A stretch of 64,000 nucleotides of DNA from Ancylobacter rudongensis (GTDB taxonomy: Bacteria; Pseudomonadota; Alphaproteobacteria; Rhizobiales; Xanthobacteraceae): assembly GCF_900100155.1 (NCBI RefSeq), contig NZ_FMTP01000003.1:186001-250000 (forward strand), given 5' to 3'. The notes under the pieces are model-generated. The model was not told the DNA's origin. It was given only the letters and a program-made list of their open reading frames with translations, and made no database searches. Position 1 is the stretch's first letter. Each line of letters starts with the position of its first letter. Shown here piece after piece: positions 1 through 8,147 of this stretch. A program made the translations under genes and the position numbers.

Positions 1-1256
1 TCGGCATCGTCGCGCTGAAGCTGATTGTCGGCTACGACACCGGCCACCCGCTGGCGCCGACACAGACCGGGCCGGCGCTGGCGGCGCTGGTCGTCATGAT
101 CGGCGTCGCCGTGTGGGGCGGGCCGCGTCTGCGCACAATCGCGGTGCTGCTCGGGCTCGGCGCCGGCCTCGCCCTCCACCTGCCCTTCCATCCGCCCACC
201 GGCCCCCTGCACCTCACACCCGAGGATTTCGTGCCCGGAGGGATGGCCTGGCCGCTTTTCGCCCCCCGTTTCGACCTGGTGCTCCTGCCTGGGTTCCTCG
301 TCGGCGCGCTCGCCTGCACGCTGCGCGCCTTCGGCGACGTGGTGGCCAGCCAGAAGATCAACGATCCCGACTGGAAGCGTCCCGACTATGCCGGCATCGA
401 GGCGGGAGTGCTGGCCGATGGGGTCGGAACGCTGGTGGCGGGCCTCATCGGCACGATGGGGCTCAACAGCTATTCCGCCAGCGTCGGTCTGTCGGTGGCG
501 ACGCAGGTGCTGGCCCGCCGGGTGGTCATCGGCGTCGGCATTGGCTGGATCGTCCTTGCCTTCCTGCCGCGCGCCGCCACGCTGCTGCTGATTGTCCCGC
601 AGGGCGTGCTGGGCGCGGCGCTGCTGTTCGCCGCCAGCTTCGTGGCGCTGTCGGGCATCGCCATTCTCGGCCAGCGCGTGCTCGATGCCCGGCGCACGCT
701 GACGATCGGGCTGGCGCTGTTCCTCGGCCTCTCCTTCGACGACCTGCCCGGCTTCTATGCCGCGCACCTTCCCCCGGCCCTGCAGCCCTTCATCACCTCC
801 TCGCTCGTGCTGGCGCTGTTGGCGGCACTGGGGCTGAACGCGCTGTTCCGCCTCGGCGCCCGGGCCTCCCACCGGCTGAGCTGGCACGCGCCGGAAGGCG
901 CTGCGCCGCTGCGGCATTTCCTGGCCGAGATCGGCGCCCGCGAGGGCGTTCGGGCGGAAGCGCTGCTGCGCCTGACCCAGCTGGCCGACGAATTCGCCGA
1001 GGCGGCGCCGAGCCTCTCGCCCGCAGCGCCGATCGCCGTCGCCGCCCGCTTCGACGAATACGCACTGGAGCTCACCTTTGCGTGGACCGGAAAGGCCCTG
1101 ACGGCGGGCCCGGCATTGACCCTCGATCCCGACGCCGACGAGGACGCGCAGATGAACGGCGTGGTGTTCGCGCTGATGACCCGCCTTTCCGACCGGATGA
1201 CGACGTGGGAGCTTCCCGACGACCGGCAGGAACTCACCTGCCGCATCGACCAGTAG
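1..1256 (+). CDS. Xanthine/uracil (NCS2-type) permease, 3' part
   Basis: The frame is already open at base 3 and ends at TAG 1254-1256, so the N-terminal half lies outside the window. The visible 418 residues contain several hydrophobic membrane segments and the stretch ADGVGTLVAGLIGTMGLNSY, which matches the DGxGTxxAGxxGTMxxxSY signature of nucleobase:cation symporters (NCS2). After the last membrane segment (about residue 290) there is a soluble tail of about 120 residues with an ATPase/anti-sigma-like look, which is longer than usual for NCS2 carriers. It probably imports a purine or related base across the inner membrane. Family assignment is fairly safe; the substrate is unknown. It converges with the next gene, 4 bases away. 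Confidence 0.75.
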   Translation, partial: GIVALKLIVGYDTGHPLAPTQTGPALAALVVMIGVAVWGGPRLRTIAVLLGLGAGLALHLPFHPPTGPLHLTPEDFVPGGMAWPLFAPRFDLVLLPGFLVGALACTLRAFGDVVASQKINDPDWKRPDYAGIEAGVLADGVGTLVAGLIGTMGLNSYSASVGLSVATQVLARRVVIGVGIGWIVLAFLPRAATLLLIVPQGVLGAALLFAASFVALSGIAILGQRVLDARRTLTIGLALFLGLSFDDLPGFYAAHLPPALQPFITSSLVLALLAALGLNALFRLGARASHRLSWHAPEGAAPLRHFLAEIGAREGVRAEALLRLTQLADEFAEAAPSLSPAAPIAVAARFDEYALELTFAWTGKALTAGPALTLDPDADEDAQMNGVVFALMTRLSDRMTTWELPDDRQELTCRIDQ

Positions 1257-1260
1257 CGGC

Positions 1261-2508
1261 TCAGGGAGCGATCAGCACGATCCAGCCGGCGGCCATCGCC
1301 ATGCAGGCGAGCGTGACCGGCACGCCGGCGCGGGCGAACTCGCCGAACGAGATTTTCACCCCGCAGGCGGCGGCCTGCTCCACCACGATGATGCCGGCGA
1401 GGCTGCCGAAGACGATGAGGTTGCTGGAAAAGCCGGTGCCCAGCGCCAGCGCCGCGCCCAGCGCCTCGGCGTCCTGGCCGGGGGTGAGGAAGGGGATGAG
1501 CAGCATGACGGCGGGGTTGTTGCCGACGATGTTGCTCAGCGCGCCGCCGACGAGATAGAGAGCCAGCGGATCGTCGAGATTGAGCCCGGTGGCGCGCAGC
1601 CCGCCCAGCAGTTCCTGCGGCAGGCCGGTGGCCGCCATCGCCGCATTGACCACGAACAGCCCCATGATCAGCAGCAGCAGGTCGCCATCGACATGGGCGA
1701 GCAGGTCGCGCGAGGCGATCTGGCGGTTGATCAGCAGCACGCCGGCGGCGCCGAGCGCGATCAGTTCGCGCGGCCAGTCGCTGAAGATGAAAGCCGCCAC
1801 CACGAGGAGCGTCACCAGCCCCGCCTTCGCCGTCTCCACCCGGTTGAGCGGCACCGCGGGCGCGGCCGGCGCGGAGTCCGGGCCCGGCGCCCCGGCGCCC
1901 TGCGGCAGAGTCCAGCGGCCGCGATAGATCAGCGCCACGATCCCCCAGACCAGCGGCAGCGAGGCCAGCGCCGGCAGGCCGGCAATGGCGAGGAACCCGT
2001 TGAAGGACAGGCCGAGCTGCTGCGCGGCGATCATGTTCTGCGGGCTGCCGATCAGCGTGCCGGCGGAGCCCGTATTGGCGGCGAAGCAGAAGGCGAGCAG
2101 GAACGGCACCGGGTTGAGCCCGCGCGCCAAAGTGAGCGAGACCAGCAGCGGCGTCATCGCCACCACCACCACGTCATTGGTCAGCAGCGCCGAGAGCCCG
2201 CCGCCGACGCCGACCAGCACCGCCAGCAGCACCGGCGCGCTCACCGGCAGCAGCGCCACGCGTTCGGCGGTCCAGGCATAGAAGCCGGAGACGACGAAGG
2301 CGGAAGACACCACCATCAGCCCGAACAGCATGCCGACGCTGGCATAATCGATCGACTCCCACGCCGCCTTCGGGCTGATGCCGCCGGCCACCATCACCGC
2401 CAGCGCCCCGACAATGGCGGCGCCGGTGCGGTCGACCTTGAAGCCCGGCAGCTTGCCGAAGCCCATGGCGACATAGACCAGAAGAAAGATCAGGAGGGTC
2501 AGGGCCAT
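1261..2508 (-). CDS. ArsB/NhaD-like (SLC13-type) transporter
   Basis: This is a polytopic inner-membrane protein of 415 residues, nearly all hydrophobic segments with short loops, consistent with 10-12 helices. The two half-repeats each carry a conserved Asn/Gly motif: LLTNDVVVVAMTPLL in the first half and LSNIVGNNPAVMLLIPFL in the second, as in the ArsB/NhaD and SLC13 superfamily of ion and organic-anion transporters. ATG at 2508 is chosen; a GTG nine bases upstream is also possible and neither has a convincing ribosome binding site. No arsenic or sodium genes lie nearby, so the substrate is not predictable. Confidence 0.75.
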   Translation of the reverse strand: MALTLLIFLLVYVAMGFGKLPGFKVDRTGAAIVGALAVMVAGGISPKAAWESIDYASVGMLFGLMVVSSAFVVSGFYAWTAERVALLPVSAPVLLAVLVGVGGGLSALLTNDVVVVAMTPLLVSLTLARGLNPVPFLLAFCFAANTGSAGTLIGSPQNMIAAQQLGLSFNGFLAIAGLPALASLPLVWGIVALIYRGRWTLPQGAGAPGPDSAPAAPAVPLNRVETAKAGLVTLLVVAAFIFSDWPRELIALGAAGVLLINRQIASRDLLAHVDGDLLLLIMGLFVVNAAMAATGLPQELLGGLRATGLNLDDPLALYLVGGALSNIVGNNPAVMLLIPFLTPGQDAEALGAALALGTGFSSNLIVFGSLAGIIVVEQAAACGVKISFGEFARAGVPVTLACMAMAAGWIVLIAP

Positions 2509-2594
2509 GGCGGTCACGGTCTCGGCGGAACGGTCGGCGCGGGTCGCCGGAGGCGGCGATGCTTGAACGCCAACGCTTAGGCAGCCGCGCCTGC

Positions 2595-2648
2595 GGGGGC
2601 AAGTCCTCCTACGGGGGCACGTCTTCCTGCGCGGGCACGTCCTCCCGG
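2595..2648. repeat. Three imperfect 18-bp tandem units
   Basis: The units 2595-2612, 2613-2630 and 2631-2648 all follow the pattern GsGGGCAmGTCyTCCtrc. They lie in the non-coding gap between the nucleotidyltransferase stop and the transporter start. No function is evident. Confidence 0.6.
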
Positions 2649-2664
2649 ACGGCCGCCCCGCCGC

Positions 2665-3735
2665 TCAGCGTTCTTTCGGCGCGCCCGGCGCGATCAGCCG
2701 CGCCACATAATGCGACACCATGGCCGGCGCCCGCCGGGGGTTGGCCAGCACCATTCGCCCTCCCGCACCGAACAGCGAGCGGAACGCCTTCAGCGAATGA
2801 TGCCAGCGCGGCCAGCTGGTGATGCGCTCCAGCATGCGCACCAGCGCCGGGTCGGAGGCAAGCGGATTGGGCAGCCCGAAAAAGCTCTCGGTTAGGGTGA
2901 GCAGGCGCTGGGTCGAGCGTTCCCAGCCCGTCTCCCGGACGCGCGCGATCAGCGCTGGGGGCACGACCCCGCCGAAATCGTCATGGATGCGGGTGGCGAA
3001 ATCGAGCGCCTTCATCAGCGGCACCTCGGCGGTCGCCAGCCGCTCGGAATCGGGGCTGGTGCATTGCGCCAGCGAGCACAGGACCCGCGACAGCGGGTCC
3101 AGCCTGGCGATCCGCAGCCCGTCCCAGTCGAGGCTCTCCACCCCGGCGGCGGCGACATCGACCGGCAGCAGCGCCTCATGGGGACCGACGATGGTGCAGT
3201 GCAGTTCCACCCGTGCCATCTCGCCCGGATGGAAGAACGGCGGATAATGGCGCGGGCCCGCCACCTCGCTCTCCGAGGCATAGCCCAGCCCCCGCAGCAC
3301 CGCCATCGCCGCGCGTTGCCGGCTCTCGCCGGCAAACCAGACGTCGAGGTCCATCATCAGGCGTCCGTCGGCGGGGCCGTGCGCCGGCAGCAGGGTGAGC
3401 GCCCCCTTGAGCCAGACCGGCTCGAGGCCAGCGGCGTTGAAAGCCGCGCTCAGCACCCGCATCTGCCGCCGGAAACCCTCATTGCGCTCAGTGTTCCAGT
3501 CCGCCACCGCCGCCAGAATGTCCGCCACGTCGGCATCCACCCGGTCCTCAAGCCCATGGCGGGCCAACGCGACGGAAAGGGCGGGAAGGAGCCGATGGGT
3601 GTCGGCCTGGGCGAGGAGGGCCTGCCAGGGCGGGTCCGACGGCCAGTCCGCCAGCAGTTGGTCGCGGGTGGAGAAGGGCGAGACCAGCGCGCAGAGCTGG
3701 CGCAGGCTTTCGAGAGCGGTATTCCGGCGTGGCAT
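2665..3735 (-). CDS. Nucleotidyltransferase-fold protein (NTP_transf_5 type), companion of the HprK-like kinase
   Basis: This 356-residue protein has the pattern of the uncharacterised nucleotidyltransferase family (NTP_transf_5): VWLKGALTLL at about 107-116, then GRLMMDLDVWF at about 124-134, where the DxD pair would bind metal. A helical C-terminal half follows. ATG at 3735 is chosen because the longer frame would need a TTG at 3837 and has a low-complexity start. Such proteins are often found with HprK-like kinases and PqqD-like proteins in peptide-tailoring loci. Here it is divergent from three small peptide genes and a PqqD-HprK fusion, so it probably works on the same substrate. Reaction unknown. 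Confidence 0.75.
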   Translation of the reverse strand: MPRRNTALESLRQLCALVSPFSTRDQLLADWPSDPPWQALLAQADTHRLLPALSVALARHGLEDRVDADVADILAAVADWNTERNEGFRRQMRVLSAAFNAAGLEPVWLKGALTLLPAHGPADGRLMMDLDVWFAGESRQRAAMAVLRGLGYASESEVAGPRHYPPFFHPGEMARVELHCTIVGPHEALLPVDVAAAGVESLDWDGLRIARLDPLSRVLCSLAQCTSPDSERLATAEVPLMKALDFATRIHDDFGGVVPPALIARVRETGWERSTQRLLTLTESFFGLPNPLASDPALVRMLERITSWPRWHHSLKAFRSLFGAGGRMVLANPRRAPAMVSHYVARLIAPGAPKER

Positions 3736-3982
3736 GGCGCTTCCCGATAGCTGCTGCAGCGCCACATTGGGCACCAGGTTGGGCGCCGGGGCTTCCGGCG
3801 CCGCGCCAACGGTATTGAAGCCCTCCGAGCCGGGCAAGCACGCCGGCGCGCCCGCGACATGACGCCGATAACGGGCCGTGCCGTCGCCGTCAGTTGACGC
3901 CCCTTTCCCGGCGGTGCATTTTTACCCCCAGGGCCCGGCCGGTGGCGGACGGGCCGTGCCGCAGCCGACAAGAGGAGAACGC
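3736..3982. promoter_or_regulatory. Divergent control region of the peptide locus, with a sigma70-like promoter
   Basis: Between the nucleotidyltransferase (minus) and peptide A (plus), TTGACG at 3894-3899 is followed after 17 bases by CATTTT at 3917-3922, overlapping TTTTTA at 3919-3924. This fits a housekeeping-type promoter for the peptide-kinase operon. The strong ribosome binding site AGAGGAGA at 3971-3978 belongs to peptide A. Confidence 0.5.
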
Positions 3983-4159
3983 ATGGCCACGGACCGCGAA
4001 CCGACCACCGAGAAGAACGCGCCGGCCCCCGCCACGCTACCGGAAGCCACCGACCCGCGCCGCCGTGCGGCACTGGGCAAGCTCGGCCGCACCGCTGCCT
4101 ACGCCGTTCCCGCTACGATCAGCCTGATGATGATGTCCCGCTCCGCCCGGGCGAGCTGA
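3983..4159 (+). CDS. Small peptide A of a three-member paralogous set
   Basis: This 58-residue protein starts at ATG 3983, five bases after AGAGGAGA, a near-ideal ribosome binding site. The first 25 residues are polar, rich in Pro, Ala, Glu and Thr. The rest is DPRRRAALGKLGRTAAYAVP followed by a short Met-rich hydrophobic stretch and the ending RSARAS. The second half is shared with peptides B and C (D..RRAAL.KLG..A.Y.VP.T.SLM......A.A.). It looks like a twin-arginine/hydrophobic segment placed at the C-terminus with an A-x-A pattern one residue before the end. Context suggests a substrate or precursor of the PqqD-HprK protein. Function is inferred, not known. Confidence 0.8.
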   Translation: MATDREPTTEKNAPAPATLPEATDPRRRAALGKLGRTAAYAVPATISLMMMSRSARAS

Positions 4160-4229
4160 TGGCGGCAAGGGCCGCGCGCCGTTGCACCATCGGCTCGGTC
4201 TTTGGCGCACACCCATTTTGGAGACACGC

Positions 4230-4421
4230 ATGAGCCGCGATGACACGACTGCCGACAGCGCCAAGATCCCGCCCGCTGGTGAGGCCGACATCGCGGCGTC
4301 GGCTGTCGTGGCCGATACGCGCCGCCGTGCGGCGCTGTTGAAGCTCGGCCGGGCCGCCGCCTATTCCGTTCCGGCCACGGTCAGCCTGATGGCGATGACC
4401 CGGTCCGCCCGCGCCTGCTGA
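4230..4421 (+). CDS. Small peptide B of the paralogous set, C-terminal cysteine
   Basis: This is 63 residues from ATG 4230, preceded by GGAGA at 4220-4224. The N-terminal 28 residues differ from peptide A, but the second half is nearly identical in pattern: DTRRRAALLKLGRAAAYSVP, a hydrophobic segment, then TRSARAC. It ends in cysteine where A and C end in serine, which may matter if the terminal residue is modified. It lies 70 bases after peptide A. The strong conservation of the C-terminal half against a divergent N-terminal half indicates selection on the C-terminal part. Confidence 0.8.
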   Translation: MSRDDTTADSAKIPPAGEADIAASAVVADTRRRAALLKLGRAAAYSVPATVSLMAMTRSARAC

Positions 4422-4562
4422 CATCCGCGCCGCGGGGTTGGGGCAAGCCATGCCCCGGCACCGATCGCGCATCGGAAATAATCGACAACAGCCCTTCCCG
4501 GGGCGCATCTAGAAAGCCGCGCCCCGCCTCGGGAGCCGGCCGCCGATCGCACGGAGTGAATG

Positions 4563-4721
4563 ATGTCCGCAGAAGACGACGCCCGCCCCGTCAAGAAGGC
4601 CCAGCCGATCGCCGATGAAAACCGGCGCGCCGCCCTGCGCAAGCTCGGTAAGGTCGCGACCTATGGCGTGCCGGTGACGCTCAGCCTGATGTCGATCCGC
4701 CACGCCGCCGCCGCCAGCTAG
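4563..4721 (+). CDS. Small peptide C of the paralogous set
   Basis: This is 52 residues from ATG 4563 with GGAG at 4553-4556. It is the most divergent copy. The core ENRRAALRKLGKVATYGVPV and the SLM that follows are kept, but the end reads RHAAAAS rather than RSARAS/C. The 141-base gap after peptide B is the longest in the set and could hold a promoter or processing site, but none is clear. It lies upstream of the PqqD-HprK gene in the same direction. Confidence 0.78.
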   Translation: MSAEDDARPVKKAQPIADENRRAALRKLGKVATYGVPVTLSLMSIRHAAAAS

Positions 4722-4750
4722 GAACACGCCGCTTTGTCGGAGGTCGTTCA

Positions 4751-4795
4751 GTGCGGCGGGCGTCGGGCCCCAAGCCGAGTGCCTGTGCCGGGTGA
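4751..4795 (+). other. Possible 14-codon leader ORF before the PqqD-HprK gene
   Basis: GGAGG at 4739-4743 sits seven bases before GTG 4751. That opens a 14-codon frame (VRRASGPKPSACAG) ending in TGA at 4793-4795, nine bases before the ATG of the kinase, which itself has only a weak ribosome binding site. This would suit translational coupling, but it may be chance in GC-rich DNA. Confidence 0.3.
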
Positions 4796-4804
4796 CGGTT
4801 CGCG

Positions 4805-6106
4805 ATGACGGACCGCGCTTTCCCGGAAACGACCCGCGACAGCGGCACCGAGCCGCGCTTCTATTTCCGCGTGCTCGACGACCTGCTCTTTGTCTTCGAC
4901 AGGGAGCGGGAGATGGCGCACGCCCTCAATGCCCCCGCCGCGCGGCTCTTCCTCAGCCTGCCGGACGCCTTCACCGCCCCCGCCGCGCTCGGCGAAGCGG
5001 CGGCACTCGGCCCGCAGGACCTGCACGATTGCCTTGCGGCATGGGGGACATTCGGCTGGACCGAGCGGGATGAGGCCGGGCGGGTGCGGCTGAAGGGCCA
5101 CTCGCCACCCGATCCTGATCCGCCCTCCCCGACCGGGCCGGCCCCGGGTGCCGACGAAACGCTGATCGAGAGCGGCCAGGTGCGGCTCGCCGAACGCTCC
5201 GTGGCGTTCCGTCTGCTTGTGGGGGAGTCGCCGACGCCGATAGGGGCCGCCGGCGCCGTGGCGCGGGACGCCGAGCCGGCGGATGCGGACATGCTCGCGT
5301 CGCGGCTGGCCAGCGGCCGGCGCATGTTCGGCTTCTTCGGCGGCTTCCTCGATCCGCTGCCCGATCATCATCCCCCTGTGGCGACCATCGACCTTGTCGT
5401 CAGCCAGGAGGGGTTCCTCCTGCGTTGCGGCGCGCGCCTTCTGTTCTCCGACCAGGTGGTGATCGCGGTCGGCAAGGCGCGGTTGTGGCTGCTCGACCTC
5501 GCTTATCGCGATCCCCGCCCTTCCGTCTTCGTCCATGGCGCCGGGCTGGCGACAGACGAGGGGTCCATGGTGCTGGCGGGGGTGTCCGGTGCCGGCAAGA
5601 GCACGCTCTCGGCCTATCTGGTCACACGCGGCTGGCGCTTCGCCACCGACGATTCCCTCGCTTTGGGATTCCGCCAAGGCGAGACGGTGGTTCTCCCATT
5701 CCCGGGCGCGATCAATATCAAGCCGGGCAGCCTCGCCACCCTGCTGCCCTTCCACCCGCAACTGGCGGCGCTGCCGCTTATTGGCGAGGGCGAGAAGCGC
5801 GGGCGCTACCTCCCGGTGCCGCTCCATCTCCATCTGCGGACTGATGGCGCGGAGAAACGCGTGCGCGGCTTCGTGTTTCCCCGTTTCGAGCCGGGCGCGC
5901 CGCTGAGAGTGGAGCCGCTCTCCGCCGCGCGGGCGCTGCTGGAACTGATGGAAGCGGAATTCGATCTTGCCGAGACAGCCGGCGCGGCCGAACTCGACGC
6001 CTTCTTCGACACGCTGGAGCGGCTGCCGCGCTACGCCATCGTCTATAGCAACCTCGCCGAGATGGAGGCCGCGCTGCGCCGGCTGGTGGCTGGCGCGGAC
6101 GCCTGA
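4805..6106 (+). CDS. PqqD-like/HprK-like fusion kinase
   Basis: The protein has 433 residues. Residues about 18-90 look like a PqqD-type peptide-binding domain (LDDLLFVFD, then MAHALNAPAARLFLSL, which matches the 'y.LN..aa.iw' pattern). A Pro-rich linker covers about 98-116. From about 120 on it is like HPr kinase/phosphorylase: the P-loop GVSGAGKST is at 259-267, TDD at 281-283, and GAINIKPGS at 301-309. HPr itself is not encoded here, so the substrate is probably one of the upstream peptides. PqqD-like and HprK-like proteins are usually separate in the HprK-related kinase A systems that this resembles; here they are one chain. Start ATG 4805 has a weak ribosome binding site. Confidence 0.8.
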   Translation: MTDRAFPETTRDSGTEPRFYFRVLDDLLFVFDREREMAHALNAPAARLFLSLPDAFTAPAALGEAAALGPQDLHDCLAAWGTFGWTERDEAGRVRLKGHSPPDPDPPSPTGPAPGADETLIESGQVRLAERSVAFRLLVGESPTPIGAAGAVARDAEPADADMLASRLASGRRMFGFFGGFLDPLPDHHPPVATIDLVVSQEGFLLRCGARLLFSDQVVIAVGKARLWLLDLAYRDPRPSVFVHGAGLATDEGSMVLAGVSGAGKSTLSAYLVTRGWRFATDDSLALGFRQGETVVLPFPGAINIKPGSLATLLPFHPQLAALPLIGEGEKRGRYLPVPLHLHLRTDGAEKRVRGFVFPRFEPGAPLRVEPLSAARALLELMEAEFDLAETAGAAELDAFFDTLERLPRYAIVYSNLAEMEAALRRLVAGADA

Positions 6107-6124
6107 GTCCTGTGCCAATCCTGG

Positions 6125-7105
6125 TCAGGGCGCCGGCAGGCGCCCGCCCAGCTCTTCCGCGATATACGTGTCGAGGATGGCGGCGAAGTCCGCATCGCCG
6201 ACAAAGCCCAGCGCGCGCGCCCGTGCCGCATCGAAGCGCTGCGGCCAGCTTCCCACCACCCGCGCCACCGTCGGGTCCGGCGCGCGGCGGATCAGCCCGG
6301 CCACCCGCGCGCCCGCCCGCGCCCGCAGCGCCGCGATCTGCTCGCCCACGGTCACGCTGACACCCGGCATGTTGAGGCTGCGGCGGGCGCCGAGCGGTCC
6401 GGTGTCGAGGCTGGCGGCGTGGAGGAGATAGGACACGGCGGCGCGCGGCGAGGCGATCCACACCCGCATCGCCTCATCGACCGGCAGCACCGCCTCCTCA
6501 CCGTTCAGCGGCTCGCGCATGAGCGAGGAGAGGAAGCCCGACAGCGCCGCATTCGGCCGGCCGGGGCGCACGCACACGGTGGGCAGGCGCAGCGCCAGAG
6601 CGTCAATGAAGCCGCGCCGGCTGTAATCGGCCAACAGCAGCTCCACCATCGCCTTCTGCACCCCATAGGAGGAGGACGGCGCGCAGAGATAATCGTCATC
6701 AACCACCTCCGGGCACGGCGCGCCGAACACCGCGAGCGAGGAAGCGAACACCACGCGCGGCCGATAGTCCGGCAATGCCCGGATCGCCTCCAGCAGCGCC
6801 CGCGTGCCGTCGAGATTGACCCGGTAGCCTTCCTCGAACCGCGCCTCCGCCTCGCCGGAGACGATGGAGGCGAGGTGGAAGATCACTGCCGGCCGGCCCG
6901 CCACCAGCTTTTCGGCGGCGCCGGGGGCGGCATAGTCGCCGGAATGGCACTCCACCGCGAAGGGCAGCGGCGATGCCGGCGCGGGGTCGACCACGTCGTG
7001 CAGCACGGCGGTCGTCACTGCCGCCCCGCCGAGCCCTTCCGCCGCCAGACGGGAGAGCAGCTTGCGGCCGAGCATGCCGGCGGCACCGAGGATCAGGATC
7101 TTCAT
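6125..7105 (-). CDS. denD: NAD-dependent D-erythronate dehydrogenase-like epimerase-family protein
   Basis: This is 326 residues of the extended SDR (epimerase/dehydratase) fold. The NAD motif GAAGMLG is at 7-13 and the catalytic YGVQK pair about residue 147. ATG 7105 is chosen over a much longer frame because GGAGA lies nine bases upstream and the NAD motif must be near the start. Sequence pattern and the neighbouring pdxA2-like gene agree with DenD, which oxidises D-erythronate in tetronate catabolism. It is the last gene of a three-gene minus-strand operon, 34 bases after pdxA2. Assignment to the family is solid; the exact tetronate is inferred. Confidence 0.75.
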   Translation of the reverse strand: MKILILGAAGMLGRKLLSRLAAEGLGGAAVTTAVLHDVVDPAPASPLPFAVECHSGDYAAPGAAEKLVAGRPAVIFHLASIVSGEAEARFEEGYRVNLDGTRALLEAIRALPDYRPRVVFASSLAVFGAPCPEVVDDDYLCAPSSSYGVQKAMVELLLADYSRRGFIDALALRLPTVCVRPGRPNAALSGFLSSLMREPLNGEEAVLPVDEAMRVWIASPRAAVSYLLHAASLDTGPLGARRSLNMPGVSVTVGEQIAALRARAGARVAGLIRRAPDPTVARVVGSWPQRFDAARARALGFVGDADFAAILDTYIAEELGGRLPAP

Positions 7106-7139
7106 CGGCGGGTCTCCGTTCAGGACGCCTCGGCTTTTA

Positions 7140-8147
7140 TCAGGCCGCCGGCGCCGCGTCCCGGCGCGCCCGCGCCATGCGGCAGGCGACATCGAACGCC
7201 GCCTGGATGGCGCCCCAGCCGGCCTCGCCCTTGCCATAGCGATCGAAGGCGGTGCCGTGCGCCGGCGTGGCGATCGGGATCGGCATGCCGCCATGCACGG
7301 TGACGCCGCGCGAGAAGCCCATCAGCTTCATCGCGATCTGCCCCTGGTCGTGATACATGGTGACGATGGCGTCGAGCTCGTCCTTCTTCAGGAACAGCGT
7401 GTCGGCGGGGAACAGGCCGAGCACCGGCAGCCCCTGCGCCCGCGCCGCCTCGATGGCGGGGGCGATCACGTCGATTTCCTCGCGGCCGAAGCTGCCATTG
7501 TCGCCGGCATGCGGGTTGAGCCCGCACAGGGCGATGCGCGGCGCCGCCACGCCCACCCGCACCAGCGTCGAGTGAATGAGCCGGATCGCGCCGACGATGC
7601 GCTCCTCGGTCAGCAGCCCCGCCACATCCTTCAGCGGCACATGGCTGGTAACGCGGCTGGTCCATAGCCCGTCCAGCGCGTTCAGTTCGCCATAGGGGCC
7701 GTTGGGCTGCAGCATTTCGGCGAACCAATGGGTCTCGTCGGGATGGCCGAGCCCGCCCAGATGCAGCGAATGCTTGTTCAGCGGGGCGAAGCACACCGCG
7801 TCGGTCACGCCGGCCGTGGTGTACTCGATCGCCCGGCGCAGCGTGTCCATGGCGTAGCGCCCGCCATTGGCGGTGGAGACGGCGCGCTCGAACGGCGCCT
7901 CGCCCCGGCCGCGATAATCCACCAGCACCGGCACGCCGGGGGAGAAGGCCGGGCGCTCGGCATCGCCCGCCAGCGCATAGTCGAAGCGCGCGCCGCAGAT
8001 CCGCATGGCTTCTTCCAGCTCGTCACGGTCGGCGACGATGAGAATGTCGGCGGCGTCGCGGTTCGGCGCATGGGCGAGCAGGCGGACGACGAGTTCGGCG
8101 CCGATGCCGGCGGGGTCGCCGGGCGCGATGGCGATGCGGGGGGTCAT
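7140..8147 (-). CDS. pdxA2: PdxA-family 4-phospho-tetronate dehydrogenase (PdxA2 type)
   Basis: This 335-residue PdxA-family protein starts at ATG 8147 with AAGGAGA upstream. It has the N-terminal APGDPAGIGAEL motif and metal-ligand histidines in HPDETHW, MYHDQGQ and HGTAFDRYGKG. PdxA proper acts in vitamin B6 synthesis. The paralogue PdxA2 oxidises and decarboxylates 4-phospho-D-threonate or -erythronate to dihydroxyacetone phosphate. The location beside denD and under a GntR regulator favours the catabolic role. The tetronate kinase (DUF1537 family) that should make its substrate is not in this window. Confidence 0.78.
   Translation of the reverse strand: MTPRIAIAPGDPAGIGAELVVRLLAHAPNRDAADILIVADRDELEEAMRICGARFDYALAGDAERPAFSPGVPVLVDYRGRGEAPFERAVSTANGGRYAMDTLRRAIEYTTAGVTDAVCFAPLNKHSLHLGGLGHPDETHWFAEMLQPNGPYGELNALDGLWTSRVTSHVPLKDVAGLLTEERIVGAIRLIHSTLVRVGVAAPRIALCGLNPHAGDNGSFGREEIDVIAPAIEAARAQGLPVLGLFPADTLFLKKDELDAIVTMYHDQGQIAMKLMGFSRGVTVHGGMPIPIATPAHGTAFDRYGKGEAGWGAIQAAFDVACRMARARRDAAPAA

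Follow-up and report, generated by a model that had tools for sequence, protein, structure and literature searches.

What would three tandem peptide genes, a kinase and a nucleotidyltransferase-like enzyme make together? This question is raised by a 3.6-kb cassette of Ancylobacter rudongensis at positions 2540..6124 (no strand assigned to the block as a whole) of the 64,000-nucleotide stretch analyzed here (NZ_FMTP01000003.1, positions 186,001 to 250,000; hereafter, the window). It comprises three paralogous peptide genes, a gene for a kinase in which a RiPP recognition element (RRE; RiPP, ribosomally synthesized and post-translationally modified peptide) is fused to an HprK-like domain, and an opposed NTP_transf_5 nucleotidyltransferase-like (NTase) gene. 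Our favored reading of these sequences, held with moderate confidence, is that the cassette makes phosphorylated, probably further NTase-modified, linear ribosomal peptides, with RRE docking directing phosphorylation to the residue 15 positions past a leader proline (Pro+15, or +15). We establish the gene set, its domains, the catalytic and leader-binding residues, the conserved spacing and the presence or absence of the cassette as a module.

A fused kinase and peptides with a conserved spacing

The kinase (4805..6106, + strand) is a chain of 433 amino acids in one frame, recognized by profile, alignment and fold matches. Its N-terminus, about amino acids 14-95 (4844..5089, +), looks like an RRE. 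A profile of nine fused kinases (A7), run against the Protein Data Bank (PDB), gave as its only credible matches TbiB1 (2.6e-7), TfuB1 (4.2e-5) and LppB (1.1e-4), and Foldseek with the predicted model of this domain (pLDDT 83.7) also returned TbiB1 on top (E 5e-3). The sequence-only reading had called the domain PqqD-type and proposed its fold as a check; profile and fold agree with it, while the PqqD_rel_X model TIGR04353 reaches 15.3 bits (0.029, amino acids 24-59), under its curated cut-off of 35. Residues N42 and D72 line up with two LppB positions, identified from their spacing as N33 and D70, which are reported to hold the Pro kink and the Tyr of the leader (PMC13381572).

The C-terminal domain, about amino acids 240-427 (5522..6085, +), is HprK-like, as first read. 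HprK_rel_A (TIGR04352) matches it at 8e-24 over amino acids 240-427, with 84.2 bits against a curated equivalog cut-off of 200; the HPr kinase/phosphorylase model TIGR00679 gives 17 bits against 240. The kinase profile matches HprK structures at 1.8e-5, and the structural matches are PEPCK and HprK folds. The domain carries H244, a Walker A motif GVSGAGKST with K265, and D282-D283, all four residues being invariant across the seven fused kinases of alignment A3. A His, Lys, Asp and Asp set is reported as catalytic in lasso-peptide kinases (PMC9266682).

The three precursor peptides all lie on the + strand: peptide 1 (3983..4159, 58 amino acids; RRRAALGKLG, YAVP, C-terminal ARAS), peptide 2 (4230..4421, 63 amino acids; RRRAALLKLG, YSVP, C-terminal ARAC) and peptide 3 (4563..4721, 52 amino acids; NRRAALRKLG, YGVP, C-terminal AAAS; a second possible ATG lies at 4560). 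They were described from the letters alone as tandem paralogues with a conserved C-terminal half, and the alignment bears this out, with 19 of the 20 invariant columns falling from residue 24 of peptide 1 onward and the remaining one being M1. The family is marked by RRxxLxK, YxxP (28/32 close peptides) and an AxA-like end. In the window, the residue at +15 is the C-terminal one, namely Ser, Cys and Ser in peptides 1, 2 and 3. Among 32 peptides from eight loci (seven congeners and a Bosea), 24 have Ser there, 6 have Cys, and Tyr and Arg are found once each; these are related sequences rather than independent events, which limits what the count can say for our reading. The same spacing recurs in the Linear Polyphosphorylated Peptides (LPP), whose consensus YxxPxVLxHQxIxFETxxS also places its last Ser at Pro+15, and the kinase LppK has been shown to (poly)phosphorylate Ser3 of LppA, which is P-13 plus 15 (PMC13381572). 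This agreement arose independently of the alignments made here.

How might these parts work together? The RRE domain would bind the YxxP segment of each precursor and thereby present residue +15 to the kinase domain, which would move a phosphate onto it; in the window, peptides 1 and 3 would receive it on their C-terminal Ser. The phosphoserine would then be acted on by the NTP_transf_5 enzyme, through hexose or nucleotidyl transfer, as has been reported of pseudomycoidin. The layout of RR, hydrophobic segment and AxA suggests export by a Tat-like signal, so the product would probably be located in the envelope, and the peptide may remain uncleaved because its tail is only one to a few residues long. 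The Tat profile TIGR01409 matched none of the three window peptides; one relative scored 14.6 bits (0.033) against a cut-off of 16.7. The RRE, the H-K-D-D residues and the +15 Ser spacing partly support the earlier proposal of a peptide-modification locus; the phosphorylation itself, like the NTase chemistry, export and a biological role, is inferred.

Could the C-terminal Ser or Cys serve another transfer instead, such as nucleotidylation first or glycan attachment, with the P-loop domain as an activating ATPase? Cys is retained at +15 in six peptides, all within one paralogue group, and deletion of lppN made no detectable change in a heterologous host, which leaves the NTase step open (PMC13381572). 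However, the H-K-D-D set is that of the Ser kinases in this family, and Ser predominates at +15. We consider such a transfer quite improbable.

A module that comes and goes as a unit

The limits of the cassette come from comparison with a congener (G583, locus L176) that has no kinase match. In blastn, window positions 1-2539 and 6125-7373 match that genome, and what lies between them there is a spacer of about 210 bp with a different sequence; the CitMHS transporter and D-erythronate dehydrogenase are both present, and the cassette is missing as one block. Two further genomes, G597 and G584, have the transporter and no kinase match; the transporter was the only gene matched in them. A kinase match of some kind is present in 10 of 30 congeneric genomes and a clear orthologue (E below 1e-140) in 7, including Ancylobacter aquaticus and A. 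polymorphus, and each of the seven holds 3-6 peptide copies, one truncated copy in A. polymorphus included. The CitMHS transporter of the carriers is 88-97% identical to that of the window, and the D-erythronate dehydrogenase is 90-94% identical in the three carriers where the fetched stretch covers it, whereas the kinase and the intact NTases are 59-69% identical. The cassette is thus a discrete module, either present or missing as a whole, and its sequence changes far more quickly than the flanking genes.

Within this divergence, the last 31 codons of the peptides are under purifying selection, as judged from a dN/dS of 0.16-0.57 in 14 of 14 comparisons (0.30-1.26 for the N-terminal parts). 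In A. polymorphus, the NTase is a C-terminal remnant only, the kinase frame is still open, and all three peptides are off-pattern, with Arg at +15, NxxP for YxxP, and a 5' truncation. Since the NTase remnant coincides with off-pattern peptides, this decay fits the loss of one function as a unit, in a single case.

The NTase gene (2665..3837, - strand) is opposed to the peptides and the kinase, as had been noted, and its product matches PF14907 (2.9e-29; 102.8 bits, above the cut-off of 31.2) and contains a D-x-D motif (DLD) read from the sequence. Its start is uncertain, either TTG at 3837 (390 amino acids) or ATG at 3735 (about 356 amino acids). A promoter-like box, TTGACG-N17-CATTTT, stands upstream of peptide 1 (3894..3922, +); in the aligned orthologous upstream regions TTGACG is kept in 7/7 and the -10-like CATTTT in 6/7, the exception being L131. 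The open reading frames of 2540-6124 include no further recognizable gene. A second and stronger NTP_transf_5 gene of the same genome (8.7e-47; G000:C7:86451-87218, L039) has no kinase, RRE or peptide match in 17 kb.

Relatives outside the genus and the HprK-related kinase A systems

Is this arrangement peculiar to Ancylobacter? In a Bosea assembly (L034), genes for three such peptides, a fused kinase and an NTase follow one another, and other Alphaproteobacteria also have fused kinases beside RR-leader genes. We examined 16 loci with fused or fused-length kinases (the window, L033-L038, L042, L090, L128-L133 and L138; in L133 and L138 the fused state was judged from length only). An RR-leader peptide or protein lies near the kinase in 14/16, where the candidates at L037, L038, L042 and L133 were picked out by pattern scanning that had no control for chance matches; near the kinases of L036 and L138 no RR-leader gene was found. 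Other long kinase matches (e.g., L048 and L052) were looked at with the first pattern only. The fused chain and the three-peptide array, which the sequence-only reading took to be undescribed, are therefore not unique to the window; the part that stands is that we found no description from Pseudomonadota.

Some of these loci differ in detail. L037, L038 and L042 have substrates of a second class, marked by RR.FL...GRFA..TPPAVTLLL...A.A.SG; here the Ser that follows the AxA-like end is 19 residues past the first Pro, not 15 (counted by eye). At L090:8577-10943 in Rhodovulum marinum, the fused kinase is directly followed by what we take to be a Wzc/GumC-like polysaccharide chain-length gene.

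The peptides themselves are found more widely. The peptide profile has matches in 37/385 genomes of the class (E <= 0.01), some of them clearly false, and a kinase lies within 1.5 kb at 9/29 of the peptide-profile loci. In 20 larger stretches, taken from 20 of the 36 other genomes, we recognized family peptides by eye in 16, of which 5 have the kinase; in the same survey, three matches are doubtful and L102 has a kinase beside a longer RR-leader protein. The wider motif family thus often occurs without this kinase. Eight kinase-less loci (L093, L094, L096, L097, L100, L103, L104 and L110) have RR..AL..LG...YxAP-type peptides with no HprK match, most with Cys-containing tails (PCPPP and similar), and share a neighbor that is presumably hldE-like. 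These may perhaps form a separate family of exported peptides.

Such loci bring up an alternative, that the peptides are Tat- or Sec-exported envelope peptides in their own right and that the kinase and NTase modify a polysaccharide or lipid carrier instead. The RR, hydrophobic and AxA layout would suit it, as would the weak, below-cut-off TAT_signal_seq match of one relative and the wider-family peptides that have no nearby kinase. So would the clusters of related glycosyltransferase open reading frames at 19/31 loci of the canonical kinases described below, where, of the two glycosyltransferases tested, that of L159 is PEP-CTERM/XrtA TIGR03087 (473 bits) and the other a partial TIGR03088 match under the cut-off. 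However, the RRE-like domain of the window kinase includes the Asn and Asp of leader binding, the block absent from G583 contains peptides, kinase and NTase and no other recognized gene, and the peptides are off-pattern where the NTase has been lost. We therefore judge this explanation unlikely, if less so than another transfer at the C-terminus.

Our favored reading, phosphorylation at +15, may extend to the HprK_rel_A kinases, which the sequence-only reading thought the cassette resembled. The likeness holds in that this is the best-matching kinase family and has an NTase partner; it falls short in that the window kinase scores 84.2 bits against 200 and has its PqqD domain fused. Kinases over the TIGR04352 cut-off occur in 50/299 genomes of the phylum, and we took 30 of these canonical loci as a training set and the 20 others as an unseen set. 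An RR-leader gene stands beside the kinase in 23/30 training loci, with the leader RR..LLK...(V/A)P....L....A.A and, in all but one protein, a tail of about 100-120 amino acids; these longer proteins, which have the look of exported ones, are plausible substrates of the HprK_rel_A system. Ser occupies +15 in 21/23 training leaders (16 AGY and 5 TCN codons), whereas it makes up 8% of the remaining tail residues. The +15 rule was fixed as a prediction before it was tried on the unseen set, and the outcome supports it, more weakly than in the training set.

A number of observations weigh against our reading, beginning with this test. A leader match was obtained at 9/20 unseen loci and Ser at +15 in only 5 of these 9, the four misses have Ala in two nearly identical sequences, Thr in a third and a marginal leader in the last; the other 11/20 have no leader-model match, some of them lying near a contig end and two, L197 and L198, encoding an RR-leader protein that lacks the Pro. 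Position +7, within the leader, is also often Ser (16/23 training, 6/9 unseen), and the Tyr of YxxP is absent from canonical leaders. At L058, L062 and L101, several peptide classes next to separate HprK genes break the +15 rule. In the fused kinase of L090, which is outside A3, Glu replaces D282, and a PDB search with a profile of the five closest N-terminal domains retrieved no RRE. LppK gave no phosphorylation of Thr or Tyr at the Ser3 position (PMC13381572), so peptide 2, with Cys at +15, may not be a phosphate acceptor. Finally, the cassette as bounded by the empty site has no SpI-type leader peptidase or MsbA-like transporter; genes acting in trans were not searched.

It is tempting to go further and regard the Proteobacterial RRE-HprK-NTase systems, HPr-rel-A included, as one family that phospho-modifies exported proteins, with the RR-leader serving both as export signal and RRE ligand and the mark placed at Pro+15. 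The window would then be an extreme case with a single-residue core, and the envelope would receive either a modified signal-like peptide or just one modified amino acid. We advance this broader idea tentatively and hold it doubtful.

Counterparts among known pathways

The closest described relative is the lpp cluster of Paenibacillus alginolyticus, reported in 2026 and called restricted to Bacillota (PMC13381572). As described there, LPP clusters share with the cassette an RRE, an HprK-like kinase, an NTP transferase and the lack of a cyclase, and their precursors, 1-3 per cluster, share a YxxP leader with Ser at Pro+15. In contrast, the LPP RRE is a discrete protein, where the cassette has RRE and kinase in one 433-amino-acid chain; the LPP cluster includes an SpI-type peptidase and an MsbA-like exporter, neither of which is in the cassette; and the LPP core is 45 residues long, against one to four tail residues here. 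The cassette peptides, which have an RR motif and come from Pseudomonadota, agree with the full LPP motif only in YxxP and in the spacing from Pro to Ser. By these features (no discrete RRE, peptidase, exporter or full motif), the cassette is outside LPP. The main text of that report has zero mentions of proteobacteria or pseudomonadota, and in the open-access literature searched we found no description of this combination in Pseudomonadota, nor of a link to HPr-rel-A substrates.

A second comparison is with the lasso peptides paeninodin and pseudomycoidin, where HprK homologues (PadeK, PsmK) act on a C-terminal Ser and an NTase (PsmN) reportedly attaches hexose to the phosphoserine of pseudomycoidin (PMC9266682, PMC8498205). 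The cassette differs in its precursors and in having no lasso cyclase or B2 peptidase. Since RRE, HprK and NTase are lasso tailoring partners in these reports, the cassette might be the tailoring part of a lasso pathway whose peptidase and cyclase are encoded in trans, and a B2-like PF13471 gene does exist on contig C9 of the same genome. That gene, however, has no RRE, kinase, NTase or peptide match within 18 kb; no cyclase or B2 gene was recognized in the cassette, no genome-wide cyclase search having been made; and the tail past the leader, one to a few residues long, could not form a lasso. We find this explanation highly improbable.

Two other systems can be compared. The HPr-rel-A system (TIGR04352 and TIGR04353, with PF14907) has the best-matching kinase family, an NTase partner and, in the RR..LLK...P....L....A.A leader proteins, a candidate substrate; unlike the cassette, it has a separate PqqD gene, longer tails (mostly about 100-120 amino acids) and polysaccharide-type glycosyltransferase neighbors. 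SynChlorMet ScmC/ScmD also pairs an HprK-like with a PqqD-like protein, though the ScmC profile scores the window kinase only very weakly (0.016).

The cassette brings no new principle, its scheme being shared with LPP and the lasso tailoring enzymes. What is new is the one-chain RRE-kinase, the lack of a dedicated peptidase or exporter, the one-to-four-residue tail and the other phylum; altogether, the cassette resembles a reduced, Gram-negative version of a Gram-positive phosphopeptide pathway. If our reading is true, phosphopeptide RiPPs would occur in Pseudomonadota as well as in Bacillota, there with RRE and kinase in a single chain and hardly any core. The compact enzyme may phosphorylate a residue that lies a fixed number of positions from a short docking motif. 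For the orphan families involved, HprK-related kinase A, its PqqD partner and NTP_transf_5, there are now candidate substrates and a predicted site of modification, so that their function can be tested directly.

The genome contains further genes of these types. The B2-like gene (G000:C9:83718-84050; L204, L205) is its only PF13471 match, and additional HprK-like genes lie on G000:C8 (L135), G000:C7 (L136) and G000:C2 (L134), those of L135 and L136 each with a separate PqqD-like gene within the same stretch.

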